NCBI RefSeq assembly: GCF_037265215.1
Contig: NZ_CP147737.1
Span: forward strand, 2,202,001 to 2,266,000
From: Xenorhabdus griffiniae
GTDB lineage: Bacteria > Pseudomonadota > Gammaproteobacteria > Enterobacterales > Enterobacteriaceae
Direction: 5' to 3'
Length of the DNA: 64,000 nucleotides
The stretch's first letter is position 1; every line of letters starts with the position of its first letter. Both the position numbers and the translations under genes were made by a program. Positions 4,912 through 21,083 of this stretch are shown here, in pieces. A model generated the notes under the pieces. That model was not told the DNA's origin. It did no database searches and saw only the letters and a program-made list of their open reading frames with translations.

Positions 4912-4926
4912 TTTGAGGAGTGTAGT

Positions 4927-5667
4927 TTGGAAAATAATAAGTTGTTTATTATACCAAAACCGATCAGTAGTCCGAGGTTGAGACTCTTTTGCTTTCCATA
5001 TGCGGGGGGATCTGCGAGAACTTATCTTGATTGGGCAGCGTATTTTAATGATGATATTGAGATAGTGGCAGTTCAACCGCCAGGGCGGGCAACTCGAATT
5101 GGTGAAACCTTGTATGAAGATTTGCCTTCTCTGGTCGATGAGTTAATCGCTCATGCTGCATTTATTACGCAGATCCCTTATGTATTTATTGGACATAGCC
5201 TGGGATGCCGTGTGGCATTTGAACTTGCTTGTCAATTGCAATCCCGTGCTTATCCCATTCCTGTCCACTTCTTTGCGTCAGGGTGTCCAGCTCCACATTT
5301 GAAGGATAATAATCCTTATACTCATAACTTGCCTCGTGACCAATTTATCCGTGAGCTACAAAAAATGAATGGCGCCACTGATGAGATATTGTTAAATGAT
5401 GAACTTATGGATATATTGCTGCCGGTTTTAAGGGCTGATTTCAAGATGGCTGAAACCTATCAGCCAGCACGATTCGTCCTAAAAAGCCCAGTAACTGTTT
5501 TAAGTGGTGATTCCGATCCTGACGTTAAACCAATTGAACTTTATGCCTGGTCAGAATTATCCAGCGAAGATTTAACGATACAATATATTCAGGGAGATCA
5601 TTTTTTTATTGATCAAAATAGAAGGCGGGTTATAGAGGTTATGTTGTCTGCATTATCACCAATGTGA
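4927..5667 (+). CDS. Type II thioesterase of the NRPS operon
   Basis: A 246-aa alpha/beta hydrolase of the GrsT/RifR type. GHSLG puts the nucleophile at Ser91; the acid is probably Asp197 in SGDSDPDV, and His225 in QGDHFF is the base. Such enzymes remove wrong acyl groups from carrier domains, and can release the product when the synthetase has no thioesterase domain of its own, as here. The start is TTG at 4927, preceded by GAGGAG at 4915-4920; no ATG fits the conserved N-terminus (LFCFPYAGGSA). It lies 15 bases after the NRPS stop and is the last gene of the operon. Confidence 0.9.
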   Translation: MENNKLFIIPKPISSPRLRLFCFPYAGGSARTYLDWAAYFNDDIEIVAVQPPGRATRIGETLYEDLPSLVDELIAHAAFITQIPYVFIGHSLGCRVAFELACQLQSRAYPIPVHFFASGCPAPHLKDNNPYTHNLPRDQFIRELQKMNGATDEILLNDELMDILLPVLRADFKMAETYQPARFVLKSPVTVLSGDSDPDVKPIELYAWSELSSEDLTIQYIQGDHFFIDQNRRRVIEVMLSALSPM

Positions 5668-5716
5668 CACCTTGCCTATCGGAAAGGGTTATAACTTACC
5701 TAAATATAACCCTTGT

Positions 5717-5821
5717 TATACGCATCAAACTTCAAGTTGCAATTTACAACACGCTATGAAGCTCGATATCTCCCCGCTTCGCGGGGAGATATCATATGCA
5801 TCTTGAAGTGAGATTGGTATA
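5717..5821 (+). repeat. Interspersed palindromic repeat, copy R1
   Basis: About 105 bp running from TATACGCAT to ATTGGTATA, with an inner CTTCAAGTTGCA / CATCTTGAAGT inverted pair and a perfect central hairpin built on CTCCCCGCTTCGCGGGGAG. The family recurs at 17256-17360, 17464-17474 plus 19481-19574, 24154-24260, 38186-38258, 38763-38868 and 57326-57431. This copy lies between the convergent thioesterase gene and znuB, where the hairpin could act in transcript ends of both. Confidence 0.9.
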
Positions 5822-5846
5822 GTTGTATTTGAATTGTCGCTAAAAA

Positions 5847-6632
5847 TCAGTTTCTTGCCTTGAACGTTAAGCTCAAGGCAAATAACACTGCCGAACAAAG
5901 TACAACGGAAGGTCCTGCCGGTGTGTTATAAAATGCCGATAATGTTAACCCTCCCGTAACAGAAAGCATACCGACAATAATTGCAAAAACGGCCATTTGT
6001 TCAGGTGTGCGGGAGAAACGACGGGAGGTAGCGGCAGGGATAATCAGCAGGGAGGTGATAATTAATGCCCCAACGAATTTCATTGCCAGCCCAATAGTTA
6101 ATGCTGTCACTAACATGAGTAAAATACGCAGACGTTGAATTTTAATGCCATCAACAAAGGCCAAATCTTGGCTAACTGTTATTGATAGCAGGGCGCGCCA
6201 TTGCCATGTCAGTAATCCAGTAACAATCGCGACACCGGCCGCAATGAGCCAGAGATCTTCGTAAGTTACGGACAATAAATCGCCAAACAAATAAGCCATT
6301 AGATCGACCCTGACACTGGTCATAAAACTCACGACGACTAAGCCCAGCGATAAGGCACTGTGAGCCAGAATGCCTAATAAGGTATCAACTGCCAATTGCG
6401 GGCGCTTTTCCAGCCAAACCAAAATAGTGGCTAAGATAAGTGTTACTGCAATCACCGCATAAAATGGGTTCACATTCAGTAAGAAACCAAATGCAACACC
6501 AAGCAGTGATGCGTGTGCCAGTGTATCACCAAAATAGGACATTCTGCGCCAAACGACAAAAGAACCAAGAGGCCCCGCGGCAATTGCCAAAAAAATACCG
6601 GCGAGCCAGCCGGGAAGTAATAATTCAATCAT
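5847..6632 (-). CDS. znuB: High-affinity zinc ABC transporter, permease
   Basis: A 261-aa integral membrane protein of the ABC-3 permease family with about eight hydrophobic segments, matching E. coli ZnuB in length and in motifs such as the N-terminal [21 protein letters not shown] and the [17 protein letters not shown] loop. It forms the inner-membrane channel for Zn2+ delivered by periplasmic ZnuA. Its ATG overlaps the znuC stop by four bases (ATGA), so the two are translated together. Expression is probably controlled by the Zur box at 7417-7431. Confidence 0.96.
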
Positions 6633-7378
6633 CGGCGTGATTCCCCTACATTTTTCAAAATAACTTTCCCTCTAAGATCATGATGATGATTGTGGTGATG
6701 GCGGTAAACTGCCAGTTGTTCTGCACCATGATGTCCAAACATTGCAATAAACTCTGGGTGCATTGACACCACTTCTGGTGTGCCAGAACAACAAATGTGC
6801 TGATTGAGGCATAAAACCTCGTCTGTTTTCGCCATGACTAAGTGCAGGTCATGGGATACCATCAGTACAGCGCAATTAAGCTCTGTTCTGATTTGGTTGA
6901 TTAAGTCATAAAGCGCCAGTTGGCCATTGACATCCACGCCTTGTGTTGGTTCATCAAGAACTAAAAGCTGGGGATGGTTCAGCAAAGCCCTGGCGAGTAA
7001 TACCCGCTGAGTTTCTCCACCAGACAGCTTTTGCATGGGTTGCTCCAATAAGTGAGCAGCCTTGACCCGATTTAATACCGGCATGATATCTGCGGGTTTC
7101 ACATTGGGCCTTAACAGCATAAAACGCTTTACAGTCAGGGGCAGAGTGGGATCAAGGTTAAGTTTTTGCGGAACATAACCAATTCTTAATGTGGGGTTCT
7201 GTTCAATCGTGCCCGAAGTGGGTTGGACTAAACCAAGAACGACGCGAACCAGAGTTGATTTTCCTGCACCGTTTGGGCCGATCAGGGTCAGAATTTTCCC
7301 TTGCTTGAGATTGAATGAAATATTATTTAATACCTTGCGGTTACCAAATTCAACCGTAATATTTTTTAGGGTAATCAT
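6629..7378 (-). CDS. znuC: High-affinity zinc ABC transporter, ATP-binding subunit
   Basis: ABC ATPase with Walker [10 protein letters not shown], signature LSGGETQR and Walker B LLVLDEPT, ending in a His-rich tail (HHHNHHHD) typical of ZnuC. I start it at the ATG at 7378 ([12 protein letters not shown]), which matches the E. coli N-terminus. An in-frame ATG 54 bases further upstream would place the Zur operator inside the coding region and adds a non-conserved leader. It powers the ZnuABC zinc uptake system with znuB, which overlaps it. Confidence 0.95.
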
Positions 7379-7416
7379 AGTTGGCGAGTCAAAAGTGTCT
7401 TGCGGAATTATTGGAA

Positions 7417-7431
7417 TGTTATAATATAACA
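7417..7431. promoter_or_regulatory. Zur operator between znuCB and znuA
   Basis: TGTTATAATATAACA is a perfect palindrome around a central A and agrees with the core of the enterobacterial Zur box. It sits in the 85-bp gap between the divergent znuC and znuA starts, so zinc-loaded Zur bound here would repress both units. Confidence 0.9.
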
Positions 7432-7463
7432 AAATTCAATTTTCTGCATGGAATATTCATATT

Positions 7464-8423
7464 ATGTTACACAACTCACAGAAATACGCGCATAAGTTTT
7501 TTCATAACATCGCATTAGCGACTACGTTAGTGGCAGGAATGAATGGCTCTGCGCAAGCCGATGTTGTTGCATCCATTCGGCCATTGGGTTTTATTGCAGC
7601 TGCCATTGCTGATGGTGTAACAAAGACTCAAGTGCTTCTGCCCGATGGCGCTTCTCCACATGATTATGCGTTACGGCCTCGGGATGTACAGAAAATTAAT
7701 CAAGCCGATTTGGTTGTTTGGATTGGTCCAGATATGGAAACCTTTTTGGCGAAACCCATAGCTAAAATTGAACGGAATAAACAACTGTCACTGGCTGAAT
7801 TATCGACGATTAAGCCACTATTATTGAAAAATAGTGAAGATAGTCATGAACCGGATGCTGAATCATATCAGCATAAACATGAGGAAGATCACGAACATCA
7901 TCATCACGGTGAATATAATATGCATATTTGGCTTTCTCCAGAGATTGCGGAAAAAGCCGCTCAGGCAATATATGATCAGCTTATTGAGCAATATCCTCAA
8001 CAAAAACAGCAATTAGAAGTAAACCTACGTAAATTCAATGGACAGCTTGCACAAACTGATAAGAATATTACTCATGTTTTAAAGTCCGTACAAAAACAGG
8101 GTTATTTTGTTTTTCATGACGCGTATGGTTATTTTGAAAAACACTACCAATTGGCTCCGCTAGGTGTTTTTACGGTCAATCCTGAAATACAACCTGGTGC
8201 GCAAAGGTTACACAAAATACGAACACAATTGGTTGAGCAGAAAGCAAGGTGTATTTTTGCTGAACCTCAATTCAAGCCAGCCGTTATTCATGCCGTAGCA
8301 AAAGGTACTGATGTACGTATTGGAATACTTGATCCTTTAGGGAGTGGTATCGTATTGGATAAAGATAGCTATATGAAATTTATAACTCAGCTATCAAAAC
8401 AATACGCGAGCTGCCTGAATTAG
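7464..8423 (+). CDS. znuA: Periplasmic zinc-binding protein of the ZnuABC transporter
   Basis: A 319-aa cluster A-I metal-binding protein. The N-terminus has a signal peptide ending near SAQADVVASIRPLG. The His/Asp/Glu-rich loop typical of zinc members is seen at about residues 125-155 (HEEDHEHHHHG), followed by HIWLSPE, and the C-terminal half has FHDAYGYFEKHY. It captures Zn2+ in the periplasm and hands it to ZnuB. It diverges from znuCB across the Zur operator and is followed after 20 bases by mepM. Confidence 0.96.
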   Translation: MLHNSQKYAHKFFHNIALATTLVAGMNGSAQADVVASIRPLGFIAAAIADGVTKTQVLLPDGASPHDYALRPRDVQKINQADLVVWIGPDMETFLAKPIAKIERNKQLSLAELSTIKPLLLKNSEDSHEPDAESYQHKHEEDHEHHHHGEYNMHIWLSPEIAEKAAQAIYDQLIEQYPQQKQQLEVNLRKFNGQLAQTDKNITHVLKSVQKQGYFVFHDAYGYFEKHYQLAPLGVFTVNPEIQPGAQRLHKIRTQLVEQKARCIFAEPQFKPAVIHAVAKGTDVRIGILDPLGSGIVLDKDSYMKFITQLSKQYASCLN

Positions 8424-8443
8424 TATAGTAAGGAATTTTATTA

Positions 8444-9763
8444 GTGCAGCAGATAGCTAAAACTATCGTTCTGGTATACAACAACCTGCCCAAACCACAC
8501 AAGATCATGCTTGGATCTCTCACGCTGGTCACTCTGGCTATCGCGATATGGCGGCCTGTTGTTTACCATGAACGAGAAGAACAGACAGGTAGTATTATTC
8601 TCAGTACCCCCAATCGCATTCCAGAAGCAACGGATGATGATGTCGCTGGGGATGCTAATGAACAACTCCCCAATGAGGGCATTGGGGATGATGATGGCAG
8701 TTCTGTTGATACGGCAGTAAATGTTCCGCACCAATATGTTGTCTCCAGTGGTGATACCCTGAGTTCGATTTTAACTCAGTTCGGAATTGATTCCTCTGAT
8801 GTTGCTTTGTTAGCAAATCAATATAAGTCATTGCGTAATTTAGGTATTGGTCAGTCATTATCGTGGACTACTGATGATAATGGGAGTTTAAAAACGCTGA
8901 CTTGGAATATATCACGGCGCGAAACTCGCGTTTATACTCGCGAAGGAGATACTTTTAACCAAACGCAAGAGTTCCAGAAGGGAGAATGGAAAAACAGTGT
9001 CATCAAAGGTACAGTTGATGGCAGTTTCAATAGTAGTGCTCTGGTGGCTGGATTAACAAGCAGTGAAGCTAGAGAAGTGACAAAAGCGTTGCAATGGCAG
9101 ATAGATTTCCGCAAATTGCGTAAAGGTGATCGTTTTTCTGTGTTGATGTCCCGTGAAATGCTTGATGGGAAAAGTGAACAAAGCCAATTGTTAGGTGTTC
9201 GCTTACAAAGTGGTGGCAACGATTATTATGCCTTCCGGGCCGATGATGGTCGTTTTTACGACAGCAATGCTTCCGGGCTTGAGCGTGGCTTCTTGCGCTT
9301 CCCCACAACTAAACAGTTCAGAGTATCTTCTTCTTTCAATCCACATCGCTTAAATCCGGTAACTGGCAGAATTACAGCGCATAAAGGGGTTGATTTTGCT
9401 ATGCCAGTAGGAACTCCGGTTCTGGCGGTAGGTGATGGTGAAGTCGTTGTCGCCAAATTTGATGGGGCAGCCGGTAATTTCATTGCTATTCGGCACGGTC
9501 GTCAATATACAACTCGATACATGCATTTGAGGAAAATACTGGTAAAACCGGGTCAGAAAGTGAAACGGGGAGAACGTATTGCGCTATCAGGGAATACGGG
9601 ACGCTCAACAGGTCCACACTTGCACTTTGAATTCTGGAATAACCAGAGGCCGGTTAACCCGCTCACGGCAAAATTACCGCGCGCTGGTGGGCTGAGTGGT
9701 AAAGAGCGTACAGAGTATGTAGCAATGGTTCAAGAGACTAAGCCTCAATTGTTGCTAGATTAA
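8444..9763 (+). CDS. mepM: Murein DD-endopeptidase, LysM plus M23 domains
   Basis: 439 residues, the same size as E. coli MepM (YebA). An N-terminal membrane anchor (about 20-40) is followed by a LysM segment (HQYVVSSGDTLSSIL, about residue 95), an OapA-like middle region and a C-terminal M23 metallopeptidase with zinc ligands in HKGVDFAMPVGTPV and GPHLHFEFW. It cleaves D-Ala-mDAP cross-links to allow insertion of new glycan strands. The start is GTG at 8444. The gene order znuA-mepM-lpxM is as in E. coli. Confidence 0.95.
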   Translation: MQQIAKTIVLVYNNLPKPHKIMLGSLTLVTLAIAIWRPVVYHEREEQTGSIILSTPNRIPEATDDDVAGDANEQLPNEGIGDDDGSSVDTAVNVPHQYVVSSGDTLSSILTQFGIDSSDVALLANQYKSLRNLGIGQSLSWTTDDNGSLKTLTWNISRRETRVYTREGDTFNQTQEFQKGEWKNSVIKGTVDGSFNSSALVAGLTSSEAREVTKALQWQIDFRKLRKGDRFSVLMSREMLDGKSEQSQLLGVRLQSGGNDYYAFRADDGRFYDSNASGLERGFLRFPTTKQFRVSSSFNPHRLNPVTGRITAHKGVDFAMPVGTPVLAVGDGEVVVAKFDGAAGNFIAIRHGRQYTTRYMHLRKILVKPGQKVKRGERIALSGNTGRSTGPHLHFEFWNNQRPVNPLTAKLPRAGGLSGKERTEYVAMVQETKPQLLLD

Positions 9764-9889: not shown

Positions 9890-10858
9890 ATGAATAAAGA
9901 AAAAGATACAGATAGTAAATTGGGATATGTCCCTCGGTTTCATCGAGCTTATTTACATCCTCGTTATTGGGGGCTTTGGGCTGGCGTGGGTATATTGGCA
10001 GGATTGTCTTATGTCCCTGTAAAATGGCGTGATCCACTCTTGGCCAAGATAGGTGTTTTGGCGGGAAGAAAAGCGAAAAGTGCTCGCCGCAGGGCAAAAA
10101 TCAATTTAATTTACTGCTTTCCTGAGTTAACGGAACAACAGCACGAAGAGCTGATTGATCGCATGTTTGCTACCGCCCCTCAATCGTTTGTTATGCTGGC
10201 GGAGCTTTGTCTCAGGGGAGCAAAATCAACCCTTGAACGAACCCAATGGCATGGCGAAGACACTATTCAAGCCTTAAAAGCACAAGGTAAGAATGTGATT
10301 TTTATGGTTCCACATGGTTGGTCTGTTGATATTCCCGCGATGTTGTTGGCTGCACGTGGACAAAAAATGTCAGCTATGTTTCACCACCAAAGCAATCCCG
10401 TGGCTGATTACTTATGGAACAAGGCGCGTTGTCACTTTAGTGGTCGTTTGCATTCCCGTGATGCAGGGATTAAACCCTTTATCTCTACAGTGCGTGAAGG
10501 TTTTTGGGGATATTATTTACCTGATCAGGATCATGGCGAAGAGCACAGCGAATTTGTCGATTTTTTTGCCACTTATAAGGCGACTTTGCCTGCACTTGGA
10601 CGCTTAATGAAAGTTTGTCGCGCGGCCATTGTTCCGTTATTTCCGGTTTATAATTACCAAACTCATCAGCTGGACATTTATATCCGTCCACCCATGGAAG
10701 ATATTGCAGGACAGGATGATGCTTATATTGCTCGTCGGATGAATGAGGAATTGGAAGAGTTGGTGAAGCCGAATCCTGAACAATACACTTGGATCTTAAA
10801 ATTGCTTAAGACGCGCAAAGCAGGGGATATTGAGCCTTATAAAAGGGAGGACTTGTGA
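9890..10858 (+). CDS. lpxM: Lipid A myristoyltransferase (late acyltransferase)
   Basis: 322 residues against 323 in E. coli LpxM. The HX4D acyltransferase motif is present as His142 and Asp147 (HGWSVD), after an N-terminal membrane segment (YWGLWAGVGILAGLSYV). It adds the last secondary acyl chain to Kdo2-lipid IVA on the cytoplasmic face of the inner membrane. It is close kin to LpxL, but the gene order beside mepM supports LpxM. In E. coli pykA is the next neighbour; here the dar operon and a group II intron lie between. Confidence 0.93.
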   Translation: MNKEKDTDSKLGYVPRFHRAYLHPRYWGLWAGVGILAGLSYVPVKWRDPLLAKIGVLAGRKAKSARRRAKINLIYCFPELTEQQHEELIDRMFATAPQSFVMLAELCLRGAKSTLERTQWHGEDTIQALKAQGKNVIFMVPHGWSVDIPAMLLAARGQKMSAMFHHQSNPVADYLWNKARCHFSGRLHSRDAGIKPFISTVREGFWGYYLPDQDHGEEHSEFVDFFATYKATLPALGRLMKVCRAAIVPLFPVYNYQTHQLDIYIRPPMEDIAGQDDAYIARRMNEELEELVKPNPEQYTWILKLLKTRKAGDIEPYKREDL

Positions 10859-10962: not shown

Positions 10963-12252
10963 TTATCCTGCCATAACCTGTTCTATCGTTTTCAACAAGT
11001 TACCGGTTCCACAGCATGAATTATTATAATTTGGGTTATGTTTTCTATTAATGACCCTATCATGAGGACAGCCACCATTACATATGAAGAACCATTTACA
11101 TTGATGCATTTTTTCATATGATTCTTTTTCTTCTATAAGGTGGTTTTTATTAGTATTGGAGTTTTTTAGGAGATATCCTAAATCATTATCTATTATTGAA
11201 CCGTAATTATTCCCTTTTGCGCCAACATATTTGTCACATGCAGATATGGTACCATTGGGTTCTAGGGTAATAATTTCTTGGGAACAATTTCCAGCCCAAT
11301 AGCAATCGGAGATCTTTTTCTGGGAATATTTTATGCTATTAATAAAGCCGTCAAATAAACGAATATTTATTTTGTCTCTATAATTACCCCACCAAATACG
11401 GAAAACTTTAGAAAGGAAATTAATATAATCATGGTAATTGATATAACTTCCTCCCGGATCATCACCAGGTTTAAGCCTGTTATCCGGGACAATATTTAGG
11501 AATTCAATATCAGTTAAATCTATTTCATGAAAATAAGAGAGCATTTTTTCTATATTTGATTCGTAAACATCCCTATCAACAACGATAAGTGCGCCATATG
11601 GTATTCCATATTGGCGTAGCTTTTTCATTCCGGCTGCAACTCTCTGAGAGGTTGGCCTTCCCCTGTAATCTAATCTTCTACTGTCATGTATTTCAGGGAT
11701 ACCATCAACACTAATGCCCACACTCATGCCAATGCCTTTTAGGAATAACAGCCAATCTTCAGGAATGTTTACCGCATTAGTTTGCACAGTATTTGTTATA
11801 ATCTGGCCTGGCTTCTTAAATTGTTGTTGCAACCATATCAGCTTCTTGAAGTAACTCACATTTAGCAATGTTACCTCACCACCGTGCCAAACGAACTCGA
11901 ATCTTTTTATATTTGGAATAGAGAGAAAGCGATGGAGAGATCTCATTAAGTTAAAAAAAGTTAATGTATTCCCTTTTCCTTCAGCCCATGAGTGACAGTA
12001 AGTACACCTTAAGTTGCAGAGCCTGGTTGCTTTTATAACGACAACTAGCTTAGTTGCGCTAATTTTTTCTGGACTAAAATGTATGCTTTTTTCCTTTTTA
12101 TATAAATCAAATTCTTCGTTATTTAGTATATTTTCTGCAGGAATTTCACCAATAATTCTGGCAGCTAATTGCTTGTAATTAACTTTTTGAGTCCCTGCGG
12201 AAGAAGGGGGGGAGGTCAGATCCAAAAATTTTATAGGAATTATTGTATCCAT
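10963..12252 (-). CDS. darE: Radical SAM/SPASM darobactin maturase DarE
   Basis: A 429-aa radical SAM enzyme. CNLRCTYC gives the 4Fe-4S SAM-binding cysteines Cys79, Cys83 and Cys86. The C-terminal SPASM region has a cluster of cysteines in CDKYVG, CKWFFICNGGCPHDR and NNSCCGTG for auxiliary clusters. DarE-type enzymes build both the aryl-ether link between Trp1 and Trp3 and the C-C link between Trp3 and Lys5 in the darobactin core. I use the ATG at 12252, which has AAAGAGAAA just upstream; a frame-extending TTG at 12282 has no ribosome site. It is the last gene of the minus-strand dar operon, 26 bases after darD. It is AT-rich compared with lpxM and pykA. The function rests on operon context plus the darA core. 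Confidence 0.92.
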   Translation of the reverse strand: MDTIIPIKFLDLTSPPSSAGTQKVNYKQLAARIIGEIPAENILNNEEFDLYKKEKSIHFSPEKISATKLVVVIKATRLCNLRCTYCHSWAEGKGNTLTFFNLMRSLHRFLSIPNIKRFEFVWHGGEVTLLNVSYFKKLIWLQQQFKKPGQIITNTVQTNAVNIPEDWLLFLKGIGMSVGISVDGIPEIHDSRRLDYRGRPTSQRVAAGMKKLRQYGIPYGALIVVDRDVYESNIEKMLSYFHEIDLTDIEFLNIVPDNRLKPGDDPGGSYINYHDYINFLSKVFRIWWGNYRDKINIRLFDGFINSIKYSQKKISDCYWAGNCSQEIITLEPNGTISACDKYVGAKGNNYGSIIDNDLGYLLKNSNTNKNHLIEEKESYEKMHQCKWFFICNGGCPHDRVINRKHNPNYNNSCCGTGNLLKTIEQVMAG

Positions 12253-12278
12253 ATATAATTTCTCTTTAGTTATTAATA

Positions 12279-12941
12279 TCAAGTCATTAAATGACCGTCC
12301 TTCATAATTAGTATTCTGTCAGAGAATTTAGCTGCTTCTGAAGAATGGGTAACCATTAAAATTGTGGTGCCATTTTTATTTAACTCTTTCAGTGAGGATA
12401 ATATAATTTCCCCATTAGCACTGTCCAAATTACCCGTTGGTTCATCGGCTAATAATATAGCAGGGTTGGATATCATTGCCCTGGCAATTGCAACACGTTG
12501 TTGTTGACCTCCTGATAATTGTATTGGTTTATGATTTTCTCTATTTTTCAGGCCAAATTTATGTATTGAATCAAAAACTTTTTCTTTTCTTTGTGATTTT
12601 TTGTATCCCCTATATTTTAGTGGTAGCTCGATATTCTCAAATACAGTTAGATTTGGTAACAGGTTGAATGATTGAAAAATATACCCAATAAGTTCACGGC
12701 GTAATGAAATTTTATGGGAATATTTCATATTGGAAATGTTTTTATCGTTAATTGTTATTTGCCCATGTTCGAAGGTTTCAAACATGCCTATAACATTCAG
12801 TAAGGTTGATTTACCAGAACCTGATGATCCCATAATAGAAACAAATTCACCTTTATCTATATTCAGATTTATGTCACTCAAAACATTAGTTTGGATAAAT
12901 TTTGTCTTATATGTTTTGCAGACATTTACGATGTTAATCAT
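12279..12941 (-). CDS. darD: Darobactin ABC exporter, ATP-binding subunit DarD
   Basis: A 220-aa ABC ATPase of the MacB/LolD subfamily: Walker A GSSGSGKST, signature LSGGQQQR, Walker B ILLADEPTGNLD and the H-loop VTHSSEAAKF. It should power the tripartite exporter formed with DarB (permease) and DarC (periplasmic adaptor), with a TolC-like outer-membrane partner encoded elsewhere. The ATG at 12941 has AAGGA upstream; the frame extends to a TTG at 12950 without a better site. It begins two bases after the darC stop, so translation is coupled. Confidence 0.92.
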   Translation of the reverse strand: MINIVNVCKTYKTKFIQTNVLSDINLNIDKGEFVSIMGSSGSGKSTLLNVIGMFETFEHGQITINDKNISNMKYSHKISLRRELIGYIFQSFNLLPNLTVFENIELPLKYRGYKKSQRKEKVFDSIHKFGLKNRENHKPIQLSGGQQQRVAIARAMISNPAILLADEPTGNLDSANGEIILSSLKELNKNGTTILMVTHSSEAAKFSDRILIMKDGHLMT

Positions 12942-12942
12942 A

Positions 12943-14139
12943 TTATTCAATCCTTACTGTATTGTTCTTAACAAAATTGCTTTTGCCAAAACTGACTATT
13001 ACCTGATTTTCAGAGATACCATCTTTGATTTCTGTATTAATCCCATCATCAGAACCGATAGAAACTAATGTGCGTTGGGCTGATTTTTGGTTTTTATCCA
13101 GAATGAAAACATAGTATTTATTGTCTAGATAAAATATCATAGATGAAGGGACAGAAAATATCGATCTGTTTTCGGACAGATTTACCGCGATATCAACAGA
13201 TTGTCCTCGTTTGAAATTAAAGTTTTTTTGGGTTTTAAATACAAACCTGACCTTGAAAGTGCCGTTATTAACTTCAGATGAAATTAGCTTTACCGATAAA
13301 GGTATTTTATTATTGTTATAAATTAAGTTTGCAGGAGAGGTATAGGTTATTTTATCCAGGTAATATTCATTAATTTCTGATTCGAAATAGAAACTGGATA
13401 AATCGTCAATGACAGCTATTTGCTCCCCTGGTTTTAGTCTCTGGCCTAAAATTAAATTTAATGAGCTGATGTTACCAGAGATTGTTGATTTTATTGAAAG
13501 TTGTTCAAAGCCGTTTTCAATGATTTCAGAAAGCTTTTTTTGTTTTTTTACAGCATCATTAATTTCTTTTAGTTGCTGTTTTATGTTTTTATCCTGTTCG
13601 TATTTTAATTTTTTATAAAATTGATAAACATTACTCCAGTGATCCATCTTAATTTTTAAATCACGCAAAACTTCTTTAGAAACATAATCTCTGTTTGTAA
13701 TGTTATTGTATCTTTCGAGTTTATTCTTAATGGTTTTTAATTCCTTAGTGGCGTCTAAAAATTTATCATTTATATCTCTGTAATCTGATTGTAAATTAGT
13801 TTTTATATTTATCAAGTTATTCAATTTATCTGTAACGTCAGCTAACATAACTGAGTTATTCAAGGTGAAATTAAAGTTAGATAGCTTTACTATTTCTTCA
13901 TTTTTTAATATATTTTGTGAGGGTTTTTTTATAATTTCGCTAACAATTCCACCTATTTCTGTTGAAATAGATACGCTATTATCAGGAACGACAACAGCTC
14001 TTATCTTCAAGGAATCATTGCTTGTTTTCCTGAGTACTTCAAATTGTGTTATCTCTCTCTTTCCTACAGTCACTTCTTTTGCAGAAAAGGTATAATATAA
14101 AATGAAAATGATAAATAAAATAAAAAGTATCAGAAACAA
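12943..14139 (-). CDS. darC: Darobactin exporter periplasmic adaptor (HlyD/MacA type) DarC, 5' end uncertain
   Basis: An inner-membrane-anchored adaptor: a transmembrane stretch at the N-terminus (FLILFILFIIFILYY), a lipoyl-like segment (IGGIVSEIIKKP), a long Lys/Glu/Asn-rich coiled coil (about 80-200), the second lipoyl half (ISGNISSLNLILGQRLKPGEQIAVI) and beta-barrel domains. In this frame the only start is a TTG at 14139 with no ribosome site. A much better ATG at 14195 lies just after the darB stop, but it reads into a stop after 16 codons. One extra A in the A8 run (14172-14179) would join the ATG to this frame and give a Lys-rich lead-in before the membrane helix. So this gene is frameshifted, phase-variable or mis-sequenced at its 5' end. 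Confidence 0.85.
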   Translation of the reverse strand: MFLILFILFIIFILYYTFSAKEVTVGKREITQFEVLRKTSNDSLKIRAVVVPDNSVSISTEIGGIVSEIIKKPSQNILKNEEIVKLSNFNFTLNNSVMLADVTDKLNNLINIKTNLQSDYRDINDKFLDATKELKTIKNKLERYNNITNRDYVSKEVLRDLKIKMDHWSNVYQFYKKLKYEQDKNIKQQLKEINDAVKKQKKLSEIIENGFEQLSIKSTISGNISSLNLILGQRLKPGEQIAVIDDLSSFYFESEINEYYLDKITYTSPANLIYNNNKIPLSVKLISSEVNNGTFKVRFVFKTQKNFNFKRGQSVDIAVNLSENRSIFSVPSSMIFYLDNKYYVFILDKNQKSAQRTLVSIGSDDGINTEIKDGISENQVIVSFGKSNFVKNNTVRIE

Positions 14140-14171
14140 AAGAATTATTGATTTTTCTTTATTATGTATGC

Positions 14172-14179
14172 TTTTTTTT
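14172..14179 (-). repeat. A8 homopolymer at the apparent 5' end of darC
   Basis: Eight T on the plus strand, read as AAAAAAAA in the darC direction, inside the MDIKIEKK... lead-in that starts at 14195. With eight A the frame ends at a TAA after 16 codons; with nine A it runs into the DarC membrane helix without a break. Confidence 0.75.
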
Positions 14180-14203
14180 CAATCTTTATATCCATTATTC
14201 ATC

Positions 14204-16627
14204 TCACAAGAATTTAGCAGAAGATAATTTCTTATAGTTTATTAAATATACTGCAATAAGAATAATAATAGTAAATATCATGGTTGCTGACAAAGCTAAT
14301 GTGCTATAAACAAAAGTATTTGCATAAGAAATGTTATATTCTTTGATTAAGTAATTTAACAGGGGCTTTCCTGATAAGTATGCTATAAATATTGATGCAA
14401 TGATAGGAAGAATACTCTTTGATAAAAAATGGATTAAGTTAGTGTAAATAGATCCTCCAATAGATTCCATAATGCTAAATTCTTTTTTCATACCATTAAA
14501 GTCAGTCATGCTGGTAGTGAAACAAGAGAGCATTAACAGGACAATAGAAAAAATAGCTGTAGTGGAAGTAAGTTTAATTAATTTCCAATAGTTATTATAA
14601 TAAGCGTCAAATAATTGGCTGGTTAAATCAATATCATTCTTGCTAAAACCATGTTTTAACAAATTATCAAATATAACAGGTGTGTTTTTTATATTGTTAA
14701 CATTAAATGAAATGTATTTGTTGTCACCTTTTTTAATGAAAATCACTATGGGTCTAAATGGTTCATCAATGGCAGCTAAGTTAAAGTTTTCTATAACCTG
14801 AATAAACCTGATCTGTATTTTATTATTCCCTTGCATATACCAATAATAGTTATTAAATATGTCGTCAAATTTAGTAATGCCGTTTTGTGTCAAAAATTCT
14901 TTTGTAACAATAGCATTGACTGTATTTTTATCATTGCTCTGATATATATGATTATTCTCTCCTGCAATTGTCCTTATTTTCCAGACATTAGTAAAATTTT
15001 CATCCGCAGTGATCACATTTGAGTAAATATATTTATTGCTGATTTTTTGCCCTGAATGGTAAATGGTAATGTTTTCTCTTGACATATCAAATGGACGCCA
15101 ACTGCTAAATGTTGATGATGATATAATTTTATTTTTGGTAAGTTCATCACCCAGTTTATTAATGGTCAATTTTTTGTTATTATCATTGTTTATATCTATT
15201 GATAGTGTATTCGTGTTATCGTACGGAATGTGTAATTCCATTAATTGGATGTATTGACTGACTAATCCTGTAACCAGGTAAATTGAGATGCCGGCAACAA
15301 ATAATTGAATAGCTAGGGAGGTTTTTTTGAACCAAGAGAAGAATATGGATTCATATCTCATATCCATTTTTCTGTTTCTTTGATAAAAATAAAATCTTAG
15401 TAAAAATGAAAGGTTTATTAATGAAGTTATTATAAATGAAAGAAAAATAGAAAAAATTGCCAGAAAAATCAATTGGTGTGTATCGAGTATATCGAGTATA
15501 TCGAGTATATCGAGTATATCGAGTATATCGAGTATATCGAGTATATCGAGTATATTGAGTACATTCCTAATGTATGCAGAATAATGGATTATACATATAC
15601 TTAAAAACAAAAATATTATGATAGAACATATGGATTTTATCAGGATTTTTGGAAAAGTGTCATAAATGATGTTTAATGTTGATGCACCTAATGCCTTTTT
15701 TAATTGGTAAATATCTCTTTTCTCAGATGAGTAAGAAGAAATTAAGCTATAGTAATTGGTAATTGCCGCGAATAATATAAATGCAAGGGCAGCATATGAA
15801 CTATAGATAACTTCTTTTGATAACCCCGTGGATATTTCATCAGGCAAGCCATCTTGATAATGAATATCTTTCATTTTTTTTAGAGTAAGATGTATAAAAT
15901 CGGTCGCCGTGAATGGTGCTCCTGGGAGATTAGTGGCTTTAGTTGCAATGATATTATTAAGGGAATTATCCTGGTTTTCTTTTTGAATTTTATTCGTTAG
16001 CTTAATAAATAAATAGGCGTGAGTATCATACCAATTGAATTTTTCAATATTATAATTTTGCATTAAATTTGGATTAAACAAAATAATAGCATTTATATCT
16101 AAGCTATTGTTATTGCGTTTTTCTAATAAATCTTTAATGATATAGGTTTGATTGTTTAATATGATTGACTTTCCTTCTGGTTTTTGTAAATGAAGATACT
16201 GGTCATTAAATTTTTTGGTTATGAATATTTCATTTTCTTTTAAGAAAACGCCTTCCTTTTTAAAAGGTGACAAAGTATGTAAAAAATCACTACTGACAGC
16301 AATTATTGGTACTTTTGGTATTCTCTTTTCATCTTTTTCTAATGTCATATTAATTTTGAAAAAATAATCAATTTTCTTAACTTGGGAATCTTTTTGGATT
16401 TCTTCAATCAATGGCAAAGGAGACTTTGCAGATCTCACTTTCTCCCCATTAGGTAAGTTAAAAGTTGTTTCAACACGGTAAAGATTATCGTTATTATTAT
16501 CGATATGGTAATCGGAATAAAAAAAAGTAGAGAATAAATAAACCGCTAACATCATAACGGATGTTGAAAGTATTAATAAAACCATGCTGGCATACTTCAT
16601 TGCGTTTGATTTATTATCTACATTCAT
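14204..16627 (-). CDS. darB: Darobactin ABC exporter permease (FtsX/MacB-like) DarB
   Basis: An 807-aa membrane protein with two MacB/FtsX-like halves. There is a helix at about 15-38, a large periplasmic domain, then membrane segments around YAALAFILFAAITNYYSLI, ILIKSICSIIIFLFLSICII, LIFLAIFSIFLSFIITSLI and SLAIQLFVAGISIYLV, a second periplasmic domain, and three C-terminal helices. This is the layout of non-canonical ABC exporter permeases that work with a HlyD-like adaptor. Unusually, a (Ile-Leu-Asp)8 run encoded by 9-bp repeats lies between two membrane helices. The ATG at 16627 follows AGGAAAA. It lies about 260 bases after darA, beyond two hairpins. Very AT-rich. Confidence 0.9.
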   Translation of the reverse strand: MNVDNKSNAMKYASMVLLILSTSVMMLAVYLFSTFFYSDYHIDNNNDNLYRVETTFNLPNGEKVRSAKSPLPLIEEIQKDSQVKKIDYFFKINMTLEKDEKRIPKVPIIAVSSDFLHTLSPFKKEGVFLKENEIFITKKFNDQYLHLQKPEGKSIILNNQTYIIKDLLEKRNNNSLDINAIILFNPNLMQNYNIEKFNWYDTHAYLFIKLTNKIQKENQDNSLNNIIATKATNLPGAPFTATDFIHLTLKKMKDIHYQDGLPDEISTGLSKEVIYSSYAALAFILFAAITNYYSLISSYSSEKRDIYQLKKALGASTLNIIYDTFPKILIKSICSIIIFLFLSICIIHYSAYIRNVLNILDILDILDILDILDILDILDILDTHQLIFLAIFSIFLSFIITSLINLSFLLRFYFYQRNRKMDMRYESIFFSWFKKTSLAIQLFVAGISIYLVTGLVSQYIQLMELHIPYDNTNTLSIDINNDNNKKLTINKLGDELTKNKIISSSTFSSWRPFDMSRENITIYHSGQKISNKYIYSNVITADENFTNVWKIRTIAGENNHIYQSNDKNTVNAIVTKEFLTQNGITKFDDIFNNYYWYMQGNNKIQIRFIQVIENFNLAAIDEPFRPIVIFIKKGDNKYISFNVNNIKNTPVIFDNLLKHGFSKNDIDLTSQLFDAYYNNYWKLIKLTSTTAIFSIVLLMLSCFTTSMTDFNGMKKEFSIMESIGGSIYTNLIHFLSKSILPIIASIFIAYLSGKPLLNYLIKEYNISYANTFVYSTLALSATMIFTIIILIAVYLINYKKLSSAKFL
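15482..15562. repeat. 9-bp tandem repeat inside darB (ILD-encoding minisatellite)
   Basis: Eight perfect units of ATCGAGTAT (15482-15553) plus one degenerate unit ATTGAGTAC (15554-15562). On the coding strand each unit reads ATACTCGAT, giving Ile-Leu-Asp. The unit length is a multiple of three, so copy-number change alters protein length without frameshift. Confidence 0.97.
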
Positions 16628-16791
16628 GTTTTTCTATTTTTCCTATTTGTGTTATTTTTCTATTTAAGTAACATCATTACCTGATGGAAATAACTTACTT
16701 TCCTATTTGTATAGCACATTATTTTTATTATGGCAAATTTCCGGTTTTATTGATTGTTTTACTTATTCAAACTTTTAAATCTGGTGTTTTA

Positions 16792-16828
16792 AAAAATCAA
16801 TAATAACAATTCGTTATTATTGATTTTT
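16792..16828 (-). terminator. Terminator or attenuator between darA and darB
   Basis: AAAAATCAATAATAAC (16792-16807) pairs perfectly with GTTATTATTGATTTTT (16813-16828) across a 5-nt loop. T-runs are present in both directions. In the dar direction it lies after darA and before darB, so partial read-through would give more precursor mRNA than exporter and maturase mRNA. Confidence 0.75.
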
Positions 16829-16851
16829 GAGTTGTTTTAGGTGATATCAAT

Positions 16852-16884
16852 AGGGTAATCATTTGTGATTACCCTGGTTTTTTT
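16852..16884 (+). terminator. Hairpin just downstream of darA
   Basis: AGGGTAATCA (16852-16861) pairs with TGATTACCCT (16866-16875). The T-run (GGTTTTTTTATTT) is on the plus-strand side, so it best fits termination of plus-strand transcripts entering darA from behind. In the dar direction it could protect the 3' end of darA mRNA. Confidence 0.6.
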
Positions 16885-16886
16885 AT

Positions 16887-17063
16887 TTATAGTTCCTGAA
16901 ATCCTTTAGACCAATTCCAGGCGCTAATTTCTGGGATTGTTGGATTTTCTTTGAGATCATCCAAAGATTTTTGGCTGATAGATAGATCTGTTCCTTTAAA
17001 TGATGTAGCCAGAAAACTTAATGCTTCTTGATTTCTGTTCATTTCATTTGATGTATTAATCAT
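16887..17063 (-). CDS. darA: Darobactin-type precursor peptide DarA, core WNWSKGF
   Basis: A 58-aa peptide. It aligns without gaps with the DarA precursor as I recall it: the leader has NQEALSFLATSFKGTDLSI and PTIPEISA, then the core W49-N50-W51-S52-K53-G54-F55 and the tail QEL. Darobactin A has the core WNWSKSF. The crosslinked residues Trp1, Trp3 and Lys5 are kept, so DarE should form the same two rings; position 6 changes from Ser to Gly. Known darobactin closes the lateral gate of BamA in Gram-negative bacteria. I start at the ATG at 17063, with GGAG at 17071-17074; an ATG at 17075 would overlap that site. It is first gene of darABCDE. Whether this exact core has been reported I cannot check. 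Confidence 0.95.
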   Translation of the reverse strand: MINTSNEMNRNQEALSFLATSFKGTDLSISQKSLDDLKENPTIPEISAWNWSKGFQEL

Positions 17064-17161
17064 AATAATCTCCATTTTGGGATTAGAGAGGGTTTATATA
17101 TCTTAATACTCATGGAAAAAATTTATTCCATATGGATAGTGTTGATATCAACGACTAATTA

Positions 17162-17189
17162 ATAATGTTTTATTCCCCCCCCCTGTCAA
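17162..17189 (-). promoter_or_regulatory. Predicted dar promoter with a G9 tract in its spacer
   Basis: On the minus strand a consensus -35 TTGACA (17184-17189) is followed at once by nine G (17175-17183) and then AATAAAAC and CATTAT (17162-17167) as the likely -10, with a 16-bp spacer; ATTATT would give 17. Transcription would start about 90 bases before the darA ATG. Gain of one G would set CATTAT at the optimal 17 bp. The promoter call is from sequence only. Confidence 0.6.
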
Positions 17190-17255: not shown

Positions 17256-17360
17256 TATACCAGCCTAACTTCAAGATGCGTGTGATTTCTCCCCGCGAAG
17301 CGGGGAGAAATCAGGTTTCATATCGTATCGTAAATTGCAACTTGAAGTTTAATGCGTATA
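17256..17360 (-). repeat. Interspersed palindromic repeat, copy R2
   Basis: Full-length copy in the opposite orientation to R1 (starts TATACCAGCC, ends AATGCGTATA), with the central CTCCCCGCGAAGCGGGGAG hairpin. It lies upstream of the dar promoter, about 115 bp before the intron. Confidence 0.9.
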
Positions 17361-17474: not shown

Positions 17475-18037
17475 GAGCGGTTCGCTAAGCTGCTCAGTGT
17501 CTTGCAGGTGAAAGTCCTGCCGCAGTAGTTGGTTGATTTGACTGCGTAGCTATGGCGTACGTGTGGATGGTGACTGAAACACGGGAGCAACGCCGGATAA
17601 ACGTGACCCCTGACCCAGACTGTGGGTGCGCGCAAGTATGCAGCCCGTAACGCAAGTGAACCTGAACAAGCCTCGTAAATTTCAGCCATACCGTTATGCT
17701 GGGAGAGTGTGGTGTAGGGTGATCCTGCCGAGCCTTTAGAATGGGGGCGAAGGCCAGTGAATCATGATGGATTAACAACCATATGAAGTCATGACAGGGA
17801 TCCGGGGTATTGAGGATGGGATGCATGTATAGCACTGAGTGGAACGAACGAGACCTCTCCCTGTCGTAGTCTAACCCACTGCGTAATCAAAGATATAAGG
17901 TAACCGCTGAAATTCTGAGAGATGCAGGATAGAGGAGTCGGAGGAGGTCATAGTACTGTTGATGGTAGGGACAACATAACCTGACCGTAGGGAAGGACCT
18001 CTACTTCTGTCATGCCTGTTGTTACAGGAGGTACTAC

Positions 18038-19375
18038 GTGATTGCGAAAGCTCTAAACACGGCATTTGAAAAGGTACGAGTACTGCAACGCAAGCTATAC
18101 CTGGCAGCCAAGGCGGATCCAAAACGTAAATTTGGTGTTCTGTATGACAAGGTATGTAGTGGTCGTGTGCTTGTTATGGCATGGACGCAGGTTAAAGCCA
18201 ATAAAGGTTCTTCAGGAATTGACAGGTTAACAATCGATAAGATTGAAACTGAAATTGGTGTAGGTAACTTTCTGCAAGACATCCAGAAGAAGCTAGTTCA
18301 AAAGAAGTACTCTCCTCAACCGGTGCGTAGGGTTTACATTCCTAAACCGGATGGAAAGGAAAGACCACTGGGCATACCTGTTATTGAAGATCGTGTAGTT
18401 CAGGCAGCAGTAAAGATAGTCATAGAACCGCTTTTCGAAGCGAGTTTTAAAGATTTTTCATATGGCTTTCGGCCTCGCAGAAATGCGCAGCAGGCGCTGA
18501 GAGAAATCTATAAGTGGCTAAATTTTAAATGTTACTGGGTGGTAGATGCTGATTTGAAGTCTTATTTTGACACTATCCCCCATGATAAATTGTTGTTATC
18601 GGTGAGAACCAGAGTCATAGATCGCTCAGTTGTGAAACTGATTGAAATGTGGCTGAAAGCTGGAGTAATGGAAGAGGGAAACCTGAAAGCGGGGATAGCA
18701 GGAACTCCACAAGGAGGCGTGATATCTCCACTACTGGCTAATCTTTACCTGCACTGGCTGGATCATATCTGGGAAAAAGAGGGATTCAATCAGCGTGAGC
18801 ATGACGCTCATCTTGTTCGTTATGCCGATGACTTTGTCATTTTGTGTAAGAAAGCACCGAGGTTTTATCTGGCTCAAGCCTGTAAGGTACTTGATCGGCT
18901 TGGATTGACGCTAAATACCGAAAAGACGAAAGTCGTTCATGCAATAAAGTCACCGTTTGACTTTCTGGGGCACAGGTTTGCAGTGCAGCCGTCCAAAAGG
19001 GATGGAAAATTGAGAACCTATTACTACCCCTCACCAGAAGCGATGAAAAGAGTAAAGCGAAAGATTCGTGAAGTGACACGAAAAGGTCAGCATCGGGATC
19101 TTCCGGAGCTAATCAGAACAGAAATAAACCCAATCCTTAGAGGGTGGGGTAATTATTTCAAGACGTGCAACTCCCGGATGCATTTCAAAAGCATCGCAAA
19201 TTACACGATATGGACACTCTGTATTATGTTGAGGAAGAAGCACAAGAAGCGAACTAAAGGATGGAGGGACCATCCGCCGAGCTGGTTCTACAAGTATCAC
19301 GGGTTATTTAAGTTGTATAGTCTGTCGATAAACGGAAACGAAGTCAGTCGGTATGCTCGCCTTGTAACGTCGTAA
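18038..19375 (+). CDS. ltrA: Group II intron-encoded reverse transcriptase/maturase
   Basis: 445 residues starting at GTG 18038, with ACAGGAGG upstream. It has the RT fingers and palm (IPKPDGKERPLGIP, SYGFRPRRNAQQAL, AGTPQGGVISPLLANLYL) and the catalytic YADD at 262-265, then the maturase X domain (GIIM: LRGWGNYFKTCNS). There is no HNH endonuclease C-terminus, so retrohoming would use DNA ends at replication forks, as known for endonuclease-lacking members. It lies wholly inside the intron. The gene symbol is the generic name for this family. Confidence 0.95.
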   Translation: MIAKALNTAFEKVRVLQRKLYLAAKADPKRKFGVLYDKVCSGRVLVMAWTQVKANKGSSGIDRLTIDKIETEIGVGNFLQDIQKKLVQKKYSPQPVRRVYIPKPDGKERPLGIPVIEDRVVQAAVKIVIEPLFEASFKDFSYGFRPRRNAQQALREIYKWLNFKCYWVVDADLKSYFDTIPHDKLLLSVRTRVIDRSVVKLIEMWLKAGVMEEGNLKAGIAGTPQGGVISPLLANLYLHWLDHIWEKEGFNQREHDAHLVRYADDFVILCKKAPRFYLAQACKVLDRLGLTLNTEKTKVVHAIKSPFDFLGHRFAVQPSKRDGKLRTYYYPSPEAMKRVKRKIREVTRKGQHRDLPELIRTEINPILRGWGNYFKTCNSRMHFKSIANYTIWTLCIMLRKKHKKRTKGWRDHPPSWFYKYHGLFKLYSLSINGNEVSRYARLVTS

Positions 19376-19397
19376 TGCAGCAGGAAGAAGACAGTCG

Positions 19398-19433
19398 GAA
19401 AGCCGTGTGCGGGAAAACCGCACGCACGGTTTG
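19398..19433 (+). ncRNA. Group II intron domain V
   Basis: AGCCGTGTGCGG pairs with CCGCACGCACGGTT around a GAAAA-type loop, beginning with the AGC that occupies the catalytic-triad position. This is the most conserved catalytic part of group II introns. Confidence 0.85.
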
Positions 19434-19480
19434 ACGAGGGGCCGCTGGGGAGATGACATCAAACTTGAGGCCTACTCTAC

Positions 19481-19574
19481 AACTTCAAGATGCGTGTGAT
19501 TTCTTCCCGCGAAGCGGGAAGAAATCAGGTTTCATATCGTATCGTAAATTGCAACTTGAAATTTAATGCGTATA
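19481..19574 (-). repeat. Palindromic repeat copy R3, second fragment (3' exon side of intron)
   Basis: Begins AACTTCAAGATGCG directly after the intron and ends AATGCGTATA. Its central hairpin is CTTCCCGCGAAGCGGGAAG, with a compensated C-to-T / G-to-A pair relative to R2, which argues that pairing is maintained. Confidence 0.88.
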
Positions 19575-19640: not shown

Positions 19641-21083
19641 TTATTCTACTTCAAGTACGCGACAGGTATTGGTACTGCCAATAGTTCCCATCTGATCACC
19701 TTGGGTTACGAGTACCAAATCCCCTGAGATGAGATAACCTTTATCGCGCAGGCGATTTACTGCTTCATTTGCCGCAGCGATCCCGTCAGTATGTGAGCTA
19801 CAATAAACAGGCGTCACACCACGATAAAGAGCGGTACGGTTTAAGGTTGATTCATGGCGAGACATAGAGAAGATAGGCAGGCCAGAACTGATGCGGGACA
19901 TCATGCGGGCTGTGCGGCCAGATTCAGTCATGGCGATAATTGCCTTGACGCCTTTCAGGTGGTTGGCTGCATACATAGTGGACATTGAAATCGCTTCTTC
20001 AATACTATCAAATGTTATATCCAAGCGATGTTTGGAAACATTGACACTGGGCATTTTTTCTGCGCCAAGACAGACTTGAGCCATAGCGGCAACAGTTTCC
20101 GCAGGATACTGGCCTGCCGCTGTTTCAGCGGAGAGCATAACCGCATCAGTACCATCCAGTACCGCATTGGCGACATCCATGACTTCAGCACGCGTCGGCA
20201 TTGGATTGGTGATCATGGATTCCATCATTTGCGTGGCTGTAATCACGACACGATTAAGTTGGCGGGCGCGGCGGATCAGTTTCTTCTGTACACCAACCAG
20301 TTCAGGGTCACCAATTTCAACACCGAGATCACCACGAGCGACCATGACAACATCCGATGCCAGAATAATTTCATCAATGATTTCGTCACTGCTAACAGCT
20401 TCCGCTCGCTCAACTTTTGCAACGATTTGGGGTTCACAGCCTGCATCTCGTGCGAGACGGCGCGCATAATTCAAATCTTCACCTGAACGAGGGAAAGAAA
20501 CAGCAAGATAATCAACACCAATTTTGGCTGCTGTGATGATATCTTCCTTATCTTTTGCTGTCAGTGCTTCGGCTGATAACCCGCCGCCCAATTTATTGAT
20601 GCCTTTATTGTTGGAAAGCGGGCCTCCTACAGTCACTTCCGTGAAGACTTTCATCCCCTGAACGTCCAGAACTTTCAATTGAACGCGTCCATCATCCAAT
20701 AGCAGGATATCTCCCGCCGTCACATCAGATGGTAAACCTTTATAGTCAATACCGACTTTTTCTTTATCTCCTTCTCCCTTACTTAGATTGGCATCCAACA
20801 GGAATTTATCCCCAACATTCAGGAAAATTTTTCCTTCCTTAAAGGTGGATATGCGTATTTTGGGTCCTTGAAGATCACCGAGGATGGCAACATGACAACC
20901 TAAACGGGCAGCAATTTCGCGCACTTTATTAGCACGTTGGATATGATCTTCCGCAGTGCCATGAGAGAAATTAAGGCGGACGACGTTGGCCCCCGCTTGG
21001 ATAACTTTTTCTAGATTGTCGTCACGATCTGTAGCTGGGCCAAGTGTAGTGACGATTTTTGTTCTTCTGAGCCGTCTGGACAT
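19641..21083 (-). CDS. pykA: Pyruvate kinase II
   Basis: 480 residues, the length of E. coli PykA. Active-site motifs are visible: [30 protein letters not shown] and [10 protein letters not shown]. It makes pyruvate and ATP from phosphoenolpyruvate and ADP. PykA is the AMP/sugar-phosphate-activated isozyme, separate from PykF. Its neighbours hexR and zwf match E. coli order. The stop is followed on the minus strand by a GAGGGC/GCCCTC stem (19598-19620) that may end the transcript. Confidence 0.96.

Follow-up and report, generated by a model that had tools for sequence, protein, structure and literature searches.

Does the dar-type locus of the nematode symbiont Xenorhabdus griffiniae encode a working pathway to a darobactin, and what does it mean that the core of its precursor carries glycine instead of serine at position 6? 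The question matters since darobactins serve as lead compounds against resistant Gram-negative bacteria. The locus lies in a window of 64,000 nucleotides (the whole stretch of DNA analysed; assembly GCF_037265215.1, contig NZ_CP147737.1, positions 2,202,001 to 2,266,000 of the forward strand), and the genome is a single contig of 4,767,870 base pairs (bp). With a probability of roughly 0.9 we consider it to be an intact darobactin operon whose predicted product, a bicyclic Gly6 darobactin, would block BamA in Gram-negative competitors. The genes darA-B-C-D-E follow each other head to tail at 10963-17063, all on the minus strand and in open frames that show no internal stops:

16887..17063, minus strand: darA, precursor peptide of 58 amino acids with leader, core WNWSKGF and follower QEL (NF038004)
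16899..16919, minus strand: codons of the core heptapeptide, TGG AAT TGG TCT AAA GGA TTT, Gly6 being GGA
14204..16627, minus strand: darB, FtsX-like export permease of 807 amino acids (NF038008)
12943..14139, minus strand: darC, HlyD-like periplasmic adaptor of 398 amino acids (NF038010)
12279..12950, minus strand: darD, ABC transporter ATPase of 223 amino acids (NF038007)
10963..12282, minus strand: darE, radical SAM/SPASM maturase with a CxxxCxxC motif, CNLRCTYC (NF038005)

Gene order and coordinates had been given in an initial annotation of this DNA and proved exact, with all frames open and the family models in agreement. For each of the five proteins the matching darobactin model is the best NCBIfam match. 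DarA has the WxWx(K/R)xF core expected of a darobactin precursor and reaches 58.1 bits with its model (cut-off 45). DarB is recognized as the DarB permease with 805.6 bits (cut-off 700), and DarE, in which the cysteine motif typical of these maturases is seen in the alignment, scores 734.5 bits (cut-off 650), outscoring the DarW and DynA models. These family scores rule out a chance resemblance. The NF038005 match starts at residue 11 of DarE, and the likely start of darE is the ATG at 12252. A dynobactin cluster was rejected, the DynA-type maturase model NF041298 giving 176 bits compared to a cut-off of 450. Cluster IV monocyclic daropeptides have a WT(F/Y)RF core with an ether-only crosslink, and their clusters lack darBCD and carry an N-acetyltransferase; the locus does not belong there since its core is WNWSKGF and darBCD are present (the N-acetyltransferase was not searched for).

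The precursor reads MINTSNEMNRNQEALSFLATSFKGTDLSISQKSLDDLKENPTIPEISA-WNWSKGF-QEL, the leader end EISA abutting the core, and it is the sole DarA match in its own genome. The core had been read correctly in the initial annotation, the crosslinking residues W1, W3 and K5 are indeed all kept, and the mass shift of 30.01 Da relative to darobactin A was confirmed by computation. Because the crosslinked residues are kept a bicyclic product is predicted, with 935.3926 Da and [M+2H]2+ at 468.7036 (computed from 965.4032 for darobactin A). An in-frame ATG at 17075, upstream of the 58-residue start, would extend DarA to 62 residues. The shorter form looks better, because the upstream ATG belongs to a ribosome-binding-like ATGGAG and because this codon is GTG in two and GCG in one of seven Photorhabdus sequences, all seven of which keep the ATG of the shorter form. 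Invariant columns among 15 aligned DarA sequences are M1, E13, L15, L18, S21, K23, I29, W49, W51 and K53; the upstream copies of loci L006 and L007, the latter holding a stop, were excluded from this alignment. A search of DarA in a protein database returned one match (two members), namely this protein alone, and was unusable for distribution.

According to the accessible parts of PMC8694152 and PMC9055067, DarE is the enzyme that places both crosslinks on DarA, trimming is left to host peptidases, and the product binds BamA. In X. griffiniae DarE would form an ether between W1 and W3 and a C-C bond between W3 and K5, a host protease would release the heptapeptide, and DarBCD, judged by their families, would export the product, which is predicted to bind and jam BamA of competing Gram-negative bacteria. 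This export would also be the likely self-protection of the producer. Changes that confer darobactin resistance are listed for BamA positions 394, 429, 433, 434, 435, 443, 445, 705 and 807 (PMC10135246); PMC10180388 contains no list of resistance residues. In the alignment the host BamA has the Escherichia coli residue at 429, 433, 434, 435, 443, 445, 705 and 807, and Tyr versus Phe of E. coli at 394. As the resistance positions keep the E. coli residues with the exception of 394, the comparison leans towards protection by export rather than by target change. The host protein differs from the E. coli chain also at 426, 430, 431 and 432, the difference at 431 being presumably an engineered Cys of that chain.

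A working Gly6 product is expected by analogy, because published position-6 variants are still processed, though their potency shifts with the residue. Arg6 and Ala6 analogs were made and are active, and an Arg6 core yields the full bicycle (by nuclear magnetic resonance). The accessible part of PMC10107326 describes positions 4, 6 and 7 as the most flexible ones, and the Ala6 analog D16 is among the active compounds there. By the same analogy it is plausible that the replacement of Ser6 by Gly6 changes the activity. Darobactins B-F (PMC8694152) and D16 with the core WNWSKAF (PMC10107326) represent one scaffold with a variable position 6 (R, N, A), and none of their cores, as given in the accessible parts of these two papers, equals WNWSKGF.

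The initial annotation could not confirm that this core is undescribed, and an identical published core, which by that annotation would refute its reading, does exist: the accessible part of PMC11566119 (2024) gives WNWSKGF in silico for darABCDE of X. griffiniae ID10 (DSM 17911, CP147737.1). Our locus is very likely this same cluster, and DSM 17911, a strain on deposit, in all likelihood encodes the Gly6 variant. The Gly6 core is already known as a printed prediction and its finding here is a rediscovery. An isolated Gly6 compound is not described in the accessible part of PMC11566119, and a literature search for a darobactin with S6G was likewise empty; a further literature search for the one-letter spelling WNWSKGF found no paper, and one for the three-letter spelling found PMC11566119 alone. 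While that paper gives the predicted core, its accessible part holds no analysis of site, relics or wider distribution. New here are the same Gly6 core in more distant bacteria and the history of the locus.

The core WNWSKGF also precedes darB-E in Candidatus Symbiopectobacterium sp. NZEC151 (L008), in an uncultured Cedecea (L010) and in Klebsiella sp. BIGb0407 (L011). These operons share the identical heptapeptide core and the darA-B-C-D-E set with the window but their precursors are only 30-37% identical, DarE 55-57% and DarB 27-28%, and they fall in a separate group of the DarE tree. At an expectation value (E) of 1e-120 or better, DarE was detected in 15 of 392 genomes of the family (own genome included; several of them coincide with genomes of the already named loci). 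Near darE the other 14 genomes show the cores WNWSKGF (five), WNWSKSF (five), WSWSKSF, WNWSKAF and WNWSFRF (one each) or none (one, G343). Gly6 is present in all five Symbiopectobacterium-type genomes and in two of the four genomes of the genus represented by Cedecea and Klebsiella sp. BIGb0407, the others being one with Ser6 and one without match. In the tree of DarE the window groups with seven Photorhabdus sequences, all of them Ser6 (support 100/100), and the other Gly6 sequences form together with one Ser6 sequence a different group (support 99/99), to which the precursor of the window is 28-37% identical. Six loci from genomes that were already represented (L091, L093-L095, L097, L098) were excluded from this tree, as was the broken G343 copy (L013, L100), and L096 entered it as a piece of a 297-residue frame. 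Most simply, these groupings suggest that Gly6 arose at least twice; a Gly6 ancestor with later reversals is also conceivable, the root and the deeper forks of the tree being weak. That Gly6 is a chance or decayed core is not preferred, with the same core in seven further genomes of another DarE group. Its recurrence in distant bacteria makes Gly6 worth making and testing. We consider it rather unlikely that WNWSKGF is a recurrent natural darobactin, with separate origins in a nematode symbiont and in Symbiopectobacterium/Cedecea-type bacteria, because Gly6 adjusts the choice of competitors whose BamA is attacked, position 6 serving as a selectivity dial.

The DarE search at E 1e-120 in the class and order samples yielded same-family genomes only, own included (1/369 and 3/394), and darE DNA gave no match in an E. 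coli collection. Among the matches listed by the literature search no paper paired darobactin with Symbiopectobacterium or Cedecea. The core WNWSKAF occurs naturally in L090 (G263) and is that of the engineered analog D16, called non-natural in the accessible part of PMC10107326. In L099 (G033, the one genome of its genus in the sample) a DarA-like open reading frame just upstream of darB-E (2841-3029, plus strand) has the core WNWSFRF with Phe replacing the crosslinking Lys5; the DarE of this locus reaches 719.7 bits (cut-off 650) and its DarA just 20.6 bits (cut-off 45), and the product could be a daropeptide whose second crosslink is of another kind or missing. In the Symbiopectobacterium endolongispinus-type genome G343 precursor and maturase lie on separate contigs and the maturase is damaged (DarA with WNWSKGF at C1:30318-30512; DarE, interrupted by one stop, at C4:149617-150813).

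The dar site is bordered by two genes which we take to be lpxM-like and pyk-like:

9890..10858, plus strand: lpxM-like acyltransferase gene, left border
19641..21083, minus strand: pyk, pyruvate kinase-like gene, right border

Compared to the darobactin A operon of P. khanii (L012), as presented in the accessible part of PMC8694152, the five genes, their order, the lpxM-pyk site and the residues W1, N2, W3, S4, K5 and F7 are alike. The two differ in position 6 (Ser there, Gly here), in the follower (QEI there, QEL here) and in an (ILD)n repeat found in darB here. Identity to P. khanii and P. thracensis amounts to 82-83% for DarE, 81% for DarD, 67% for DarC, 65% for DarB and 56-58% for the DarA leader, while the flanking genes reach 94% (pyk) and 81-82% (lpxM-like); the whole DarA precursor is 57-62% identical to the first copies of Photorhabdus. 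In darB-E the nonsynonymous divergence (dN) is low, 0.11-0.22, at near-saturated synonymous sites (proportion of differences, pS, 0.67-0.81), and therefore selection has maintained these genes. The G+C content of the dar genes is 28-35% versus 44-47% in the two flanking genes; for P. khanii the low G+C of the operon was taken as a sign of horizontal acquisition (accessible part of PMC11547657). All four Photorhabdus loci examined have the operon between the same two genes, lpxM and pyk. The shared site, the gene identities and the low G+C taken together make an old acquisition at the lpxM-pyk site likely, before or around the split of Xenorhabdus and Photorhabdus.

Among 30 genomes of the genus (own included) this site contains the intact operon in one, fragments in three and a bare gap of 63-225 bp in 17; seven have a longer gap in which no dar was found, in G003 the contig ends and G019 is without pyk within 12 kb. 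This means that 26 of the 29 other genomes have no dar at the site, counting G003 and G019 with their incomplete sites. Reported were DarD matches of at least 45% identity, matches of at least 60 bits and, for dar queries, matches with E of at most 0.3; rows next to the gap or beyond the E limits were excluded from the gap analysis. The fragments are a darD piece of 48 residues in G016 (L055/L071), a darE piece of 38 residues in G018 (L046), and pieces of darD (79 residues) and darE (48 residues) in G020 (L053/L067), cut off beside an inserted open frame of 239 residues, presumably transposase-like. They are slightly closer to the window genes than to P. khanii (e.g., DarD 87 vs 83%) and show that in both genera the antibiotic locus once occupied the same chromosomal site. 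When whole genomes were searched, the DarA family turned up in one of the 30 and full-length dar-type DarE in G000 alone, with pieces in G018 and G020; the remaining DarE matches in the genus, with 21-32% identity, presumably represent other radical SAM enzymes. The operon has probably been at the lpxM-pyk site since long ago, and most of the genus is without it today. In the same-species genome G009 the site is empty (gap of 201 bp); its LpxM and Pyk are 100% and 99.8% identical to ours, and its junction nearly equals that of G022, starts like that of G002 and differs from that of the own genome. The empty site and the junctions therefore mean either several losses or a regain of the block through its flanks. 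That the block was regained recently from another Xenorhabdus with dar genes, through recombination in the flanking lpxM and pyk, is possible but somewhat less likely than not; descent with repeated loss would also account for the same-site fragments in three other genomes and for the Photorhabdus copies.

Several points weigh against an intact operon with an active product. DarC (424.3 bits, cut-off 450) and DarD (365.4 bits, cut-off 375) remain slightly below the cut-offs of their top-matching models; according to the accessible part of PMC8694152, DarA and DarE suffice for biosynthesis, DarC and DarD not being essential for it. Position 6 substantially influences activity, Thr6 lowering it with A. 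baumannii responding most (accessible part of PMC10107326), and Gln6 lowers it too (accessible part of PMC10726357); by analogy Gly6 might do the same. From five predicted analog producers no compound could be detected (accessible part of PMC8694152), and therefore the native operon may be silent. The kept BamA residues are no proof of export-based protection, and Tyr394 could matter. Finally, darB contains an unusual repeat that might impair DarB:

15481..15561, minus strand: 9-bp tandem repeat of 9.0 copies with 98% matches, in frame within darB and read as (ILD)n

It gives DarB about 21 extra residues there compared to Photorhabdus, is absent from all seven Photorhabdus DarB proteins and is possibly a variable-number repeat in the exporter gene. 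The AlphaFold model of DarB has a mean predicted local distance difference test score of 37.1 and was not used to place the repeat.

An alternative view is that of a silent or crippled relic with intact-looking genes, in which the DarB repeat, a nearby intron or lost regulation blocks production and Gly6 is drift in a precursor that selection no longer maintains. The genus is in accordance with it (fragments alone in three of the 29 other genomes, nothing detectable in 26, two of these sites being incompletely resolved), as are the repeat unseen in seven Photorhabdus and the silent producers of other analogs. We nevertheless judge it unlikely, given the five open frames, the low dN at near-saturated pS, the seven other genomes with Gly6 in distant operons, which argue for function, and an intact block between darA and the intron:

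17120..17168, minus strand: 49-bp block ahead of darA (around CGTTGATATCA), shared to a large extent by the own genome and six of seven Photorhabdus
17502-19480, plus strand: group II intron between darA and pyk (Rfam 17502-17655 and 19398-19480; reverse transcriptase/maturase reading frame 18038-19375)

The block is likely a promoter or operator. A sigma-70 scan found 46 sites versus 41.1 expected from shuffles, which is no better than chance, and was not used. The intron lies on the strand opposite to the dar genes. The intact operon with a predicted bicyclic Gly6 product is preferred. That DarE makes another product from WNWSKGF, such as the ether ring alone with residue 6 influencing the second crosslink, is highly improbable, since ether-only daropeptides do exist (cluster IV, WT(F/Y)RF) but W1, W3 and K5 are kept, DarE is above its cut-off and the Arg6 core gave the full bicycle.

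Two plasmid matches were obtained at E 1e-60, a dar operon of Vibrio crassostreae and a 33% match in Cupriavidus. The former is complete, has a Ser6 core and occupies 3369-9281 of plasmid p1 (L101), which is typed as conjugative and is a possible vehicle for horizontal spread of dar. In L093 (G327), around position 2029 of the reverse-complement sequence, a second DarA-like reading frame with the core WNWIKKF has Ile in place of the start Met and is perhaps a decayed copy of the darobactin B type. Two further features accompany the operon:

16851..16876, plus strand: terminator-like hairpin in the darA-darB gap, with the T-run on the plus strand
17267-17360 and 19481-19574: 94-bp repeat, copies 97% identical, flanking the intron

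Terminator-like sites number five versus 2.2 expected. Genome-wide, 68 matches to the 94-bp repeat were counted, partial ones included, and it is therefore a dispersed element; the empty sites of G009 and G022 contain a related copy (75-78%).

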